Positions 5,054-9,021 of a stretch of 34,631 bases of DNA are shown here, piece after piece (position 1 is the first letter of the stretch; every line of letters starts with the position of its first letter). The translations under genes and the position numbers were made by a program. Location: positions 1 to 34,631 of the forward strand of contig JASHNX010000161.1 of NCBI GenBank assembly GCA_030041415.1. Direction: 5' to 3'. The notes beneath the pieces were generated by a model. It was not told the origin of the DNA and searched no databases. It worked only from the letters and a program-made list of their open reading frames with translations. The DNA comes from Candidatus Sulfotelmatobacter sp. (lineage in GTDB: Bacteria; Acidobacteriota; Terriglobia; Terriglobales; Acidobacteriaceae).

Positions 5054-5473
5054 TCATCCTGCGAAAGTTACGCCCGCGCCCCTTACCTTCGATCGAATGA
5101 ACTGTACGATGTCGTCCATAGCCGTTCCTGGCTGGAAAATCGCGGCGACACCCTGCTTCTTGAGGTTGTCGATATCCTGATCGGGAATAATGCCGCCGAC
5201 GAGCACGAGCACATCATCCATTTGATTTTGCCGGAGCAGATCCATTACCCGTGGCACGATCGCATTGTGCGCGCCGGAGAGAATCGACAGGCCGATGACT
5301 TGTACATCTTCCTGCAAGGCCGCGCTGACGATCATTTCCGGGGTCTGCCGCAGGCCGGTATAGATCACTTCCATGCCCGCGTCTCGTAAGGCGCGCGCGA
5401 TCACCTTGGCGCCGCGGTCGTGGCCGTCAAGACCGGGCTTTGCCACAAGTACGCGAATCTTGGCATCAGCCAT
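5054..5473 (-). CDS. Adenosylcobalamin-dependent acyl-CoA mutase, B12-binding small subunit
   Basis: Stand-alone cobalamin-binding subunit of a methylmalonyl-CoA/isobutyryl-CoA mutase, 139 aa. The base-off/His-on motif DxHxxG is present as Asp16-Gly-His18-Asp-Arg-Gly21; His18 is the lower axial ligand to cobalt. The second signature, [10 protein letters not shown], and the GG of [11 protein letters not shown] complete the Rossmann-like B12 site. This subunit must pair with the separately encoded large subunit at 7132-8931, since that protein lacks a B12 domain. In this genome the two are separated by a DNA glycosylase gene and an ORF6N gene, which is unusual because the subunits are commonly adjacent or fused. 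The ATG at 5473 is the start; a GTAAGGG stretch is directly upstream but too close for an ideal ribosome site. Confidence 0.93.
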
Positions 5474-5545
5474 CCCTTACATTTAACCACAGGAAACGCG
5501 GCGAAGCACAGAGTAGCCTGCTGAAGAGAGTCGACTTTCTCTTGC

Positions 5546-6211
5546 TCAGTCGCCAACCGTCTTGATATCCAAGCTCCTCCAGAGATACCAGCAGGCCACG
5601 CTTCGGTAGGGCTTCCAGCATTCGGCGATCTTTTCCATTTGCGCAGGCGTGGGTAGTTTGATTTTTCTTTTGCGCGGATTGCTGGCGGCAACGCCTTTCT
5701 TCAACTTCTTTACCCTCCGCACATCAAGATAGTGCCTATGCATCGCCATGCGCACGCCGAAGTCGCCCGTTGGTAAAACGTTTGTGCGCCTTAGGGAAAA
5801 CATCAGAAACATCTGCGCGGTCCAAACTCCAATTCCTTTTACCTGCGTCAGGTGCTCGATGACTTCTTCATCATCCAAATCCGACAGGCGCGTGAAATTC
5901 AGCACGCCGGAGGCCGTTTTCGCGGCAAGGTCTTTCAGATAAGACGATTTCTGCTTTGACAGCCCCACGCCGCGCATCTGCTCGTCACTCAGCTTGAGGA
6001 TTCCTTCGGGAGTGAGCGGCTCACCGGCCAGCGCAGCAAAGCGGGCGAATATCGTAGCCGCAGCCTTGCCGTTCAGTTGCTGATAGATGATTGCCTCTCC
6101 CAGGCTGTGAAACTCTGCCGGGCCATACTCAATGCGATAGGGGCCGACGCGGTCGATGATGGCGCGCATCACCGGATCGGATTTCTTGAGGTGAATCAGC
6201 GCTTTCCGCAC
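5546..6211 (-). CDS. DNA-3-methyladenine glycosylase II-like (HhH-GPD)
   Basis: Base-excision repair enzyme that removes alkylated bases, 221 aa, matching short AlkA-type glycosylases without the N-terminal AlkA domain. The order is as expected: FHSLGEAIIYQQLNGKAA (34-51), GVGLSKQKSSYLKDLA (81-96), the helix-hairpin-helix LTQVKGIGVWTAQMFLMF (121-138), and the catalytic aspartate Asp150 in LPTGDFGVRMA. The C-terminal stretch WKPYRSVACWYLWR closes the fold. A Lys/Arg-rich loop (near 168-184) is longer than usual. The start is a GTG at 6211; no ATG lies in frame nearby. It is functionally unrelated to the acyl-CoA genes on both sides and, with the ORF6N gene, interrupts the mutase subunit pair. 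Confidence 0.88.
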   Translation of the reverse strand: MRKALIHLKKSDPVMRAIIDRVGPYRIEYGPAEFHSLGEAIIYQQLNGKAAATIFARFAALAGEPLTPEGILKLSDEQMRGVGLSKQKSSYLKDLAAKTASGVLNFTRLSDLDDEEVIEHLTQVKGIGVWTAQMFLMFSLRRTNVLPTGDFGVRMAMHRHYLDVRRVKKLKKGVAASNPRKRKIKLPTPAQMEKIAECWKPYRSVACWYLWRSLDIKTVGD

Positions 6212-6341
6212 GACTCATGTTTTAACACACTCATGCTGAAAAAGGCGAAGAGAAAACGAAGGAGCGCAGAGCTTTGTGAATTACCGTGTCACACTCCAGA
6301 GGGATCTGCGGCAGCAGAGAGCATCCACCAAGGTCCGCCAT

Positions 6342-6920
6342 TTACCGTTTGTTTTTTGCCGGCGCCGGCAATTGAAATCCGATGCGATCGCGCGGGGGAT
6401 CCTCAGGGGTCATCAACTCTTTAATAGCTTCGATTAATTCGCTGATCGCACCGTCGTGAGTATCCAAGCGCCGTTCCAGTTCGACGACCTTTGCGGCAAG
6501 CCGCTGGTTGGCGGCAAGCATTTCGCGCAGACGCACGAAGGCGCGCACGATAAAGACGCTCATCCGTACAGCACGGTCCGAGTTGAGAACGGTCGCAGCC
6601 ATGATTGCGCCATGCTCAGTGAAGGCGTAGGGTCTATATCGCCGGCCGCCGTGCATACCACTTGAGATCACATCTTGTGATCTCAAGAATTCGTGTTCCG
6701 CCGGATTAAGCCGAAAAACAAAATCGGGAGGGAAACGTTCGCGATTGCGTTTGAGCTGTTGGTTCAAAATGCGGACGGGAACACCGAACAGCTTCGCAAT
6801 GTCCGAGTCGAGCATGACTCTTCTGTGGCGAAGGAATAGGATGCGCGACTCTACCGAGAAGGGCGGACGCACTTGCCGCTTGGGCATTGTCACCAGTTTC
6901 GTGCTTGATCGCGTTTTCAT
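6342..6920 (-). CDS. ORF6N-domain (KilA-N-related) DNA-binding protein
   Basis: Predicted DNA-binding regulator or phage-derived accessory protein, 192 aa from the ATG at 6920. The ORF6N domain covers about residues 22-108, with VMLDSDIAKLFGVPVRILNQ, RFPPDFVFRLN, LRSQDVISS and RRYRPYAFTEHGAIMA. A C-terminal coiled coil follows (about 130-170), probably for oligomerisation. The reading frame stays open upstream to 7220, but that part overlaps the mutase gene. ATGs at 6950, 6920 and 6887 are all possible starts. I chose 6920 because a 25-bp palindrome ends one base before it; the ORF6N domain is complete with any of the three. The same palindrome recurs inside the gene at codons 79-87. The family is known from phages and mobile DNA; its function here is unknown. 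Confidence 0.82.
   Translation of the reverse strand: MKTRSSTKLVTMPKRQVRPPFSVESRILFLRHRRVMLDSDIAKLFGVPVRILNQQLKRNRERFPPDFVFRLNPAEHEFLRSQDVISSGMHGGRRYRPYAFTEHGAIMAATVLNSDRAVRMSVFIVRAFVRLREMLAANQRLAAKVVELERRLDTHDGAISELIEAIKELMTPEDPPRDRIGFQLPAPAKNKR
6662..6686. repeat. Internal palindrome, copy 2 of ORF6N-locus inverted repeat
   Basis: Perfect inverted repeat: 11-base arms TTGAGATCACA and TGTGATCTCAA around a 3-base spacer (TCT). One further flanking base pair extends the match at 6661/6687. It lies inside the ORF6N coding region and on the minus strand reads codons L79-R-S-Q-D-V-I-S-S87, a segment characteristic of the ORF6N family. All 22 arm bases equal those of the copy at 6922-6946, with the two centres 260 bases apart. 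The most likely role is a second operator for an autoregulator. A chance result of coding constraint is the alternative. Confidence 0.7.
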
Positions 6921-6921
6921 T

Positions 6922-6946
6922 TTGAGATCACAAATTGTGATCTCAA
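6922..6946. promoter_or_regulatory. Palindromic operator candidate at the ORF6N start, copy 1
   Basis: Perfect inverted repeat with arms TTGAGATCACA and TGTGATCTCAA and a 3-base spacer (AAT), ending one base before the candidate ATG at 6920. On the minus strand a TATGAT hexamer (plus 6946-6951) touches its upstream edge, so a bound protein would cover the promoter or the ribosome site. If the open frame were translated here it would be read in a different phase from the internal copy, so the DNA identity is not explained by shared protein sequence. It is not a CRP site, because the TGTGA and TCACA half sites are in the opposite order. The binding protein is probably the ORF6N product itself, by inference. 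Confidence 0.65.
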
Positions 6947-7131
6947 TCATAGTCGCGACTCGACGCCAAATTCGCGGCTTAGGTTGAATTTGTTCGAGAA
7001 TTTCCCATTTCCGGCTCTGGTCTATCACCCACAGAAAGTTGAGTCCTTGCCCTTTGAAGAGGCATTGTTCATAGTTGGGGTAGGAGAAAACGCAATGGAA
7101 CATGTAGAGCGAGCAACATTGGACAAATTGT

Positions 7132-8931
7132 TTACGTGATGCTCGTTTCTGTATAGCCGCCATAGACCTGGCGCAGTGCGTCGCAGATCTCTCCAACCGT
7201 GGCGTAGGCACGCACGGCATCGATGATGTAAGGCATGGTGTTTGCGGGAGAAATCGCTGAATTTCCGTCCGACTGCGGTTCTCGCGATGCCGCCTTCTTG
7301 AGAGCGTCCAGGCCTCGCTTCACTTCATCGTTCGATCTGCGGGCGCGCAGCGCTTTCAATTTTGCGGCTTGTTGCCTAGCGACCGTTTCATCGATGTAAA
7401 GAATCTGCGGCGGTTCTTCTTCAATCGCAAATTCATTCACTCCGACGACGATTTTTTCCTTGGCTTCGGCAGCCCGTTGATACTGGTACGAAGCCTCGGC
7501 TATTTCCTTCTGTGGATAACCGCGCTCGATGGCTTTCACCATTCCACCCATGGAATCGAGTTTCCCGAAGTAGTCGAATGCTCCTGATTCCATTTGCAGC
7601 GTGAGATTCTCAAGGAAATACGAACCGCCAAGCGGGTCGACTGTCTGCGTCACTCCGGATTCGTAGGCGATGATCTGCTGCGTGCGCAAGGCAATGCGGG
7701 CGGCTTCTTCTGTGGGCAGAGCAAGAGCTTCGTCGTAAGAGTCACAATGCAGCGATTGCGTGCCACCCAGAACCGCTGCTAAAGCCTGAAGCGCCACGCG
7801 GGCAATGTTGTTCATCGGTTGCTGTGCCGGCAACGAAACTCCCGCGGTTTGGGTATGGAAGCGCATCAACCACGTGCGTTGACTCTGCGCGCCAAATCGC
7901 TCTTTCATGACTCTCGCCCAAATTTTGCGGGCGGCGCGGTATTTTGCAATCTCCTCAAAAAAATCGTTGTGCGCGTTGAAAAAGAAACTCAACCGCGGAC
8001 CGAATTCGTCAACCTCAAGTCCGCGTTTTCGCGCCCACTCGACGTATTCGATGCCGTCATACAAAGTGAACGCTAGTTCCTGCAAGGCGGTCGATCCCGC
8101 TTCGCGAATGTGATAGCCGCTGATCGAAATCGTGTTGAAGCGGGGAGTAAATTTCGAACCGAACTCGAACGTATCGATGACCAAGCGCATCGAAGGCGCA
8201 GGCGGATAAATGTATTCCTTCTGGGCGATGTATTCCTTCAGAATGTCATTTTGAATGGTGCCGGAAATCTGCTTCCAGTCCGCCCCTTGTTTCTCTGCCA
8301 CAACCAGATACATTGCCCACAAGACGGACGCGGGAGAGTTAATAGTCATCGAGACCGTGGTTTTTTCCAGATCGATGCCATTGAACAGAATCTCCATGTC
8401 TTCGAGAGAATCGATCGCCACGCCGCATTTGCCCACTTCCCCCTCGCTTGCCGGATGGTCCGAGTCGTAGCCCATGAGCGTCGGCAGATCGAAAGCCACG
8501 GAAAGCCCGCCGCCGCCGTGCTCGAGCAAATACTTGTAGCGGCGATTGGTTTCTTCCGGTGAGGCAAAGCCGGAAAATTGCCGCATCGTAAAAAGCTTGC
8601 CGCGGTATCCGGTGGCATGAATGCCGCGCGTGAACGGAGGCCGGCCGGGATACCCGAGGTATTTTTCTTCGCTCCAATCCTCGGGAAGATCTGCTGGCGT
8701 GTAAAGGCGCCGAATGGGAACGCCGGAGATTGTCGTGAAACGGGCCCGCCCCTGCTCGTCGAGATTCACTCCAGTCGGAGCGCCGATCGGACGTTCGGGA
8801 TTTTTCTCCAGAGTGGGAGCGAGTGTTTCCTCGGCCCACTTTTTTTCCGCAGCGGAGGGACAGCGTTTTTCAAAAATGTCGGCAATCGGATTATCGGCAA
8901 CTTCCTGCTTGCCCAGCTTTTTCTCGGCCAT
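7132..8931 (-). CDS. B12-dependent acyl-CoA mutase large subunit, isobutyryl-CoA mutase-like
   Basis: Large catalytic TIM-barrel subunit of a radical B12 mutase, 599 aa from the ATG at 8931; a GGGG element lies just upstream. It has no C-terminal B12 domain, so it needs the small subunit at 5054-5473. Signatures include [21 protein letters not shown] (115-135), [40 protein letters not shown] and [14 protein letters not shown]. Methylmalonyl-CoA mutase uses Tyr89 and Arg207 to bind the carboxylate; isobutyryl-CoA mutase has Phe80 and Gln198. Here the matching positions are Phe119 and Gln237, exactly 118 residues apart as in both references, which points to isobutyryl-CoA/n-butyryl-CoA or a related non-carboxylate substrate. 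Automated annotation would probably say methylmalonyl-CoA mutase. No MeaB-type chaperone or epimerase gene is in the window. Confidence 0.88.
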
Positions 8932-8954
8932 GAGAACCCCAGTATTCTCATCTG

Positions 8955-8983
8955 ATGATAGGGAACTACGGGCTAGCGAGCAA
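8955..8983 (-). promoter_or_regulatory. Candidate promoter of the mutase large subunit
   Basis: On the minus strand a TTGCTC hexamer (plus 8978-8983) is followed after 17 bases by TATCAT (plus 8955-8960), a near-consensus -10 box. The mutase ATG lies 23 bases beyond. It sits in the 90-base gap after the divergently unrelated glycosyltransferase gene, where a promoter for the catabolic block would be expected. The -35 match is weak. Confidence 0.4.
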
Positions 8984-9021
8984 GATAACGTCGGGTCCAC
9001 AAAACGGCCGGTCGGTTAGCC

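Follow-up and report, generated by a model that had tools for sequence, protein, structure and literature searches.

The question raised by this locus is why a single ORF6N gene should carry the same 25-bp palindrome twice, once inside its coding sequence and once just ahead of it. In the window, by which we mean the whole 34,631-nt stretch of DNA that was analyzed, the pattern TTGAGATCACA-N3-TGTGATCTCAA is found exactly at 6662-6686 and again at 6922-6946, both on the reverse strand, which is that of the gene. Scanning the whole window with up to three mismatches gave no third copy, and 100 shuffles gave none. At the same tolerance, a scan of the whole assembly (4.8 Mb in 350 contigs, 95.6% complete) returned only these two sites. 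The twins are thus real, as the sequence-only reading had proposed, exact at both places and the sole near-exact copies in the assembly. The 17-bp core is likewise exact at both sites and occurs with 2 mismatches at 12 other places, against 2 for a reversed control pattern. A dispersed palindromic repeat of the REP or MITE kind was considered and rejected, since such an element needs many copies per genome and the assembly has two (three or fewer mismatches).

The gene itself is an open frame at 6342..6920 on the reverse strand, 192 codons long from the first candidate ATG (Pfam PF10543, E 3.2e-27). The internal copy (6662..6686) corresponds to codons 79-87 and does spell L-R-S-Q-D-V-I-S-S; we regard it as a putative intragenic operator, and a palindrome stands at the same place family-wide. 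The upstream copy (6922..6946), whose arms are those of the internal site, is in another phase, as had been noticed: the same open frame reads EITICDLK there. It is a minority feature of the ORF6N family. The start codon that was proposed beside it exists, at 6920, but an ATG at 6887, 33 nt further in behind GGTGAC, is as plausible a start. On the same strand the upstream palindrome is bordered by a TATGAT (6946..6951), which could be a -10 element or belong to an in-frame ATG; it is present here and in three relatives (L143, L097 and L020). The first of these comes from a genome of the same genus (G084), in which the upstream palindrome is also present and all 22 arm bases are kept in both palindromes, the aligned DNA being 72% identical.

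The window protein scores 95.1 bits against PF10543, for which the gathering score is 27.8, and is thus a member of the family; its gene is the sole ORF6N match at E 0.001 in the assembly. No other Pfam domain was found in the protein, and no recombinase or nuclease domain. In the AF2 model (mean pLDDT 83.9) the ORF6N domain is followed by long helices. In the same model helix 38-45 precedes helix 49-58, an arrangement that we read as helix-turn-helix-like. The second of these, encoded at 6747..6776 on the reverse strand, is the predicted recognition helix, based on the AF2 secondary structure and on covariation with the palindrome bases; its residues R50, I51, Q54 and R58 correspond to profile columns 39, 40, 43 and 47. 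The codons of the internal palindrome encode the end of a helix and a loop of low confidence (mean pLDDT 54 for residues 81-90 of the AF2 model). Foldseek with this model gave no PDB match that passed E 0.001, the best one having E 0.34, and a PDB sequence search gave one weak, irrelevant match and no solved structure of the ORF6N family. A second fold search placed a human Ski-like domain first (Z 7.4), followed by RacA, MerR-type and partition proteins, in the uncertain range of the tool. DdrC is also among the fold matches listed for this ORF6N model (Z 4.7).

Is the internal site peculiar to this gene? With one genome per species, the exact 22-base pattern was found in at least 117 stretches from organisms of many groups. 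Among the matches listed there are 125 sites, and 93 of them lie in an ORF6N domain, 83 at one codon; 14 lie within 700 bases upstream of such a domain, 6 lie elsewhere and for 12 none was found. Relics of ORF6N stand close to the site in three of the 13 pattern-scan loci that lacked an initial ORF6N match (L114, L066 and L050). Ten loci (L012, L016, L042, L043, L046, L070, L091, L103, L112 and L116) hold exact copies of the pattern as orphan sites, and a search beyond the site in these ten found no clear ORF6N sequence (best E 0.0047).

Frequencies within the family come from gene sets collected with Pfam PF10543 or by protein searches. The Pfam ORF6N search covered 941 genomes belonging to the phyla of five centre genomes, together with eight genomes picked for the pattern, and gave 174 unique genes with the relevant column, 143 of them near-full. 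Because the best matches of each search, at most 30, supplied the loci, strong Pfam matches are over-represented; weaker ones were examined later, among the held-out genes and the divergent loci. Because the eight genomes, which supplied genes L151-L178, were picked for carrying the pattern, the sets are not wholly unbiased. The profile that places the column came from loci found via the palindrome pattern; an alignment-free test does without that profile.

At the fixed codon, 9-11 of the 11 complementary pairs are formed in 117/143 near-full genes, with a mean of 8.98 pairs compared to 2.92 (sd 0.39) when the position is moved by over 30 nt. When a shift of 12 nt is allowed either way, the count rises to 138/143 genes, one of which (L230) has just a shifted 9-pair palindrome, and genes on viral contigs score 62/64. 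Counted jointly over the best matches per search, at least 9 of 11 pairs are formed in 201/208 near-full ORF6N genes. The alignment-free test finds a palindrome of 10-11 of 11 pairs in 102/131 domain regions, in 4/131 and 5/131 of the flanking windows, and in 0/131 shuffled regions.

A more ordinary explanation would be that the peptide is conserved and that biased codons turn it into an accidental palindrome. LRSQ and the T/S residues are indeed common in the aligned family. However, synonymous recoding of the same peptides with each gene's own codon usage yields a mean best of 6.14 pairs, compared to the observed 10.15, and gene by gene the palindrome exceeds this null at p<0.05 in 201/208 genes and at p<0.01 in 184/208. 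The 208 genes were taken without regard to their number of pairs; an earlier codon test had taken only genes with 9 pairs. The arms themselves differ widely, each standing opposite its own reverse complement (TTGAGGTCACA, TTAAGGTCGCA, TTGAGGTGCCA, TGGAGGTCACA, CTAAGGTCACA, AGGTTGCCGCA and more), and differences between genes come in pairs, as in TTGAGG..CCTCAA (L..S) compared to TTAAGG..CCTTAA (L..L). In 160 genes the palindrome occupies the main offset; in 41 it is shifted by -2, -5, +12, +3, -3, -6, +1 or +9 nt. Where the shift is not a multiple of three, the same DNA core is read in another frame and encodes different peptides, for example EVVTNCDHL and ELVTNCDRF. We therefore reject the peptide-plus-codon-bias origin, which is barely credible against the codon null.

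Base composition at the site was also compared. The leucine that opens the motif (Leu68) is encoded by TTG or TTA in 34/34 genes from loci of at least 58% GC, compared to 62/454 for the other leucines there, and the site has 37% GC in 18 loci above 60% GC and 39% in 54 loci below 40% GC.

Because the palindrome exceeds codon choice in 201/208 genes, has diverse arms and is read in several frames, it is almost certainly the DNA rather than the peptide that is conserved in this ORF6N segment, and the peptide LRSQxVTS is largely what the palindrome happens to spell. The suggestion that part of the ORF6N protein motif is a conserved DNA site is borne out by these counts, by the several frames and by the helix covariation described below.

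Some genes depart from this pattern. Five second-copy Pfam ORF6N genes from Acidobacteriota were searched for the palindrome, and it is absent from them; each of these ORF6N-like genes (L127, L130, L137, L138 and L146) shares its locus with a palindrome-bearing one. Among 14 divergent Pfam ORF6N loci missed by the column profile, 6/14 have at least 9 pairs in the domain region, and one of these six (L533) may be a chance palindrome. One ORF6N query matched 5 of 50,697 phage records and 21 of 72,556 plasmid records.

If the site is a DNA target, its bases might be expected to track the protein that binds it. Over 191 genes (effective number 98), we computed the mutual information of the arm bases with those protein columns that lie outside the motif. 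Columns 43, 40, 39 and 47, which are residues 54, 51, 50 and 58 of the window protein, are among the first six covarying pairs. The covariation, tree pairs and code score are restricted to genes with 9 pairs or more, and sites with mismatched pairs are excluded. Base 9 follows column 43: glutamine goes with A in 102/102 matched pairs, glutamate with G in 45/45, arginine with C in 22/22 and lysine with C in 6/6, leaving out 4 mismatched pairs for Q43, 9 for R43 and none for E43 or K43. Base 10 follows column 47, where arginine goes with C in 170/170 and asparagine with A in 19/19 (0 and 1 mismatched left out). Base 6 follows column 39, with lysine to G in 100/100 (none left out) and a looser rule in training for arginine to A, 36/41 with 23 more mismatched and left out. 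Columns 81-84, just past the site, covary with the outer bases 1-5, and this could stem from subfamilies that differ in their loops as well as from contact. Column 89 is nearly invariant (F in 187/191) and also has a high mean Z, which we take as an artefact of few variants.

The rules were also checked against the phylogeny. On a tree built without the columns under test, we count at least 68 changes in column 43 and at least 62 in base 9. Among independent pairs on well-supported branches, the base follows column 43 in 9/9 cases for Q/E, 6/6 for Q/R,K and 5/5 for E/R,K. Independent pairs give 3/3 for column 47 and an average of 5.8 of 7 for column 39, for which the base was taken from the 5' arm. 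The code was then scored on held-out genes, which were fetched later, come partly from the same genomes as the training genes and exclude repeats of the same 120-nt stretch; 34/35 have the palindrome. It predicts base 9 in 29/31, base 10 in 32/32 and base 6 in 25/27, each better than all 5000 shuffles, and all three bases jointly in 23/28; base 9 is predicted wrongly for L516 and for the divergent L530. For the window gene, R50, Q54 and R58 predict A6, A9 and C10, and the site TTGAGATCACA has exactly these bases. Because the bases follow the predicted recognition helix, also on held-out genes, the palindrome is very probably read by the gene's own ORF6N protein.

The same evidence bears on the idea that the palindrome works in the mRNA, as a hairpin or attenuator. 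RNA could form an 11-bp stem closed by a 3-nt loop, and there is one terminator-like match at the internal site, on the opposite strand. However, an RNA stem does not explain a palindrome whose bases track a recognition helix, and the 136 mismatched pairs include 20 G-U on the sense strand compared to 47 A-C or C-A, so that there is no preference for G-U. A regulatory hairpin is very unlikely, and we reject it.

What, then, is the upstream copy for? The sequence-only reading considered a looped autorepression circuit of the two copies plausible, and suggested asking whether homologues each carry an upstream palindrome matching the internal one. We searched for such copies (at least 18/22 bases, within 450 nt) and found them upstream of 15/138 genes, downstream of 4/133 and in 0/138 shuffled upstream regions; when sites are set against the regions upstream of other genes, the same threshold is reached in 59/2346 comparisons. 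Twins are real in some lineages, that of the window gene included, and 10/14 of the upstream sites listed in the pattern scan sit 33-59 nt ahead of the domain. Because an own-site upstream copy is rare, a promoter-proximal circuit is not the rule, and the spacing of 17 sites gave no significant helical phasing (p about 0.12 to 0.31), which leaves the looped circuit unsupported. The core idea of a conserved DNA element survives this mostly negative upstream test because the internal site is near-universal; the identical upstream twin as a general design does not.

Upstream regions hold other palindromes as well. Extra 10-pair palindromes occur upstream of 34/201 genes, downstream of 15/201 and in 1/201 shuffled regions. 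At base 9 these showed no agreement with the gene's own internal site beyond chance (0.36 observed, 0.36 expected), and many of them look like foreign or relic sites. One locus (L203) has four different ORF6N-class palindromes at an exact spacing of 34 nt, 261-363 nt upstream of its internal site; the array adjoins an ORF6N N-terminal part. Two or more palindromes stand in the loop itself in 10/304 genes, and in each of these genes at least one agrees with the gene's own code wherever a rule applies. A further loop palindrome fits a different helix type in L093 and L235, and in L069 and L346 the second one is chance-like. We infer from the multiple loop sites that a new site is gained and the helix is then re-keyed.

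Observations of this kind could also point to mobility, with ORF6N modules recombining, inserting or shuffling at the palindrome and the protein helping. This idea would fit the partial ORF6N matches next to full genes, the loops with more than one site and the palindromes spaced by 34 nt. The window gene lies between genes for methylmalonyl-CoA mutase and an HhH-GPD glycosylase, with a gene for a B12-binding domain beyond (window 5054-9000), and the ORF6N gene of G084 likewise follows the methylmalonyl-CoA mutase gene. Three genomes of the same family have the mutase gene with no ORF6N behind it, which would also fit mobility. Against mobility, ORF6N is the sole Pfam domain of the protein, the gene's own genome holds two sites only, and comparison with genomes lacking ORF6N resolved no insertion ends and no clean empty site. 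We consider a recombination or mobility site improbable.

Related families were examined in the same way. Bro-N (loci L373-L492) was chosen as a negative control, and its chromosomal subfamily turned out positive. In a first set, with 27 of 30 loci used, 6/27 domain regions have at least 10 pairs, and one codon position has a mean of 7.7 over 15 rows compared to 2.69 (sd 0.75). In an enlarged set, 9 pairs are found within 12 nt in 56/91 placed rows. Chromosomal Bro-N rows, chosen by helix pattern alone with the palindrome ignored, give 35/38, and the other rows, mostly phage-type, have 9 pairs in 21/53 as a raw count. Bro-N columns 38, 41, 42 and 46, near the presumed recognition helix, covary with the inner bases in 37 rows filtered for 8 pairs, by statistics that ignore relatedness. 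For RhuM (L378, L393, L400 and L493), 8-11/11 pairs are formed at one codon in 5/5 placed rows (mean 9.6), and a RhuM query found one locus in viral contigs. These small sets show chromosomal Bro-N and RhuM apparently sharing the self-site design, and in our reading the site lies close behind the presumed recognition helix in all three families. One chromosomal Bro-N protein (L377) shows a weak resemblance to DdrC, a DNA-damage protein, that does not reach the cut-off (E 4e-4).

We propose that an ORF6N dimer binds the internal palindrome with one recognition helix per half-site. The protein would then limit its own transcription by acting as a road-block at an intragenic operator, whatever promoter precedes the gene, and the second copy near the 5' end, in the minority that includes the window gene, may strengthen this autorepression. 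The site lies in a tolerant coding loop 60 bp beyond the codons of the helix predicted to set specificity. Because it sits in this loop, near the helix codons, the gene and its target are passed on together; in the window both fall within 115 bp (6662-6776), and because of this short span transfer or recombination tends to keep the lock with its key. We infer that a solitary gene would bring its own control. An operator alone need not be intragenic, which counts against the operator reading. On balance, we put the probability that autoregulation through the intragenic operator is the main use of the site at about 0.6.

The most serious alternative is a self-recognition element that confers immunity. 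The protein would act on foreign or replicating DNA, and the site in its own gene would switch it off on DNA that carries the gene, as aba does for BstA. This precedent, BstA, is a KilA-N-like protein of abortive infection whose cognate DNA element, aba, lies at the start of its own gene, each tested locus having its own (PMC8585504). Window protein residues 22-172 match PADLOC PDC-S05, a candidate defence family, at E 2.6e-45, which places the protein in that profile family; a RhuM protein also matches PDC-S05, and a chromosomal Bro-N protein matches PDC-S13. Because these candidate families match ORF6N, RhuM and Bro-N proteins, the comparison with BstA and aba has to be taken seriously. Cognate specificity with frequent switching (68 times for column 43, as counted above) fits self/non-self discrimination, and the palindromes of genes on viral contigs fit it as well. 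However, the PDC names mark candidates and a defence role of ORF6N is putative, the window gene is chromosomal and stands among metabolic and repair genes, and aba is described with direct CCCGCC repeats and sits at the gene start, the word palindrome being absent from the main text of that paper (PMC8585504). In addition, paralogues within one genome do not avoid having a core in common (13/96 pairs share one, shuffled mean 11.6), and we reject insulation between paralogues on the same comparison. An immunity element of this type is unlikely as the main use, although less so than the other alternatives to autoregulation.

Tentatively, the families may belong to a broader class. In this speculative and somewhat doubtful proposal, ORF6N, chromosomal Bro-N, RhuM and perhaps phage-type Bro-N would be self-addressed genes, each with a site in a specificity module of about 115 bp that serves as the self/non-self tag of candidate defence proteins. 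The DNA bearing the gene would be spared or silenced, and specificity would be re-keyed as a unit.

Taken as a whole, the analysis turns a conserved "protein motif" of ORF6N into a DNA target, and it yields a recognition code from sequence alone for a family with almost no experimental literature (the word ORF6N occurs in 5 papers of the open-access collection searched). It also advises caution, as protein conservation at the motif partly reflects selection on DNA. If the code is right, the target of such a protein would be predictable from its gene, and the family would offer ready-made pairs of repressor and operator with many specificities. It would also connect the candidate phage-defence genes of PDC-S05 and PDC-S13 with the notion, taken from BstA-aba, that DNA can carry a cognate tag. 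In titles and abstract openings of the open-access literature we found no description of the embedded site; an account deeper in a paper is possible.

Several known systems place a site within or near the gene of the protein that reads it. Autoregulators with an operator downstream of the promoter, such as E. coli PurR, have the operator in transcribed DNA and repress by road-block. Such cases are known as single examples, whereas ORF6N genes have a site in the same loop in 201/208 cases. Spo0J/ParB, with parS in spo0J, and lambda O, with the origin repeats in gene O, have a site in their own gene too, but they serve partition or replication, and no such role is indicated for ORF6N. The phage anti-repressors of PHROG 4792 are a family match to the window protein (E 1e-17), and in the same open-access titles and abstract openings no embedded site was found described for them. 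The closest likeness is to BstA of prophage BTP1, which has a KilA-N(-like) domain and a cognate aba element in its own locus that gives immunity (Owen et al. 2021, PMC8585504). This aba runs from 29 bp upstream of the gene through its first 34 bp and has direct repeats of CCCGCC (PMC8585504); immunity belongs to BstA-aba and would be a putative role for ORF6N. Both have a short DNA element in their own locus, for BstA specific to each homologue tested, but the aba described for BstA lies at the gene start, whereas the ORF6N site is a palindrome set midway within the DNA-binding domain and linked base by base to the predicted helix.
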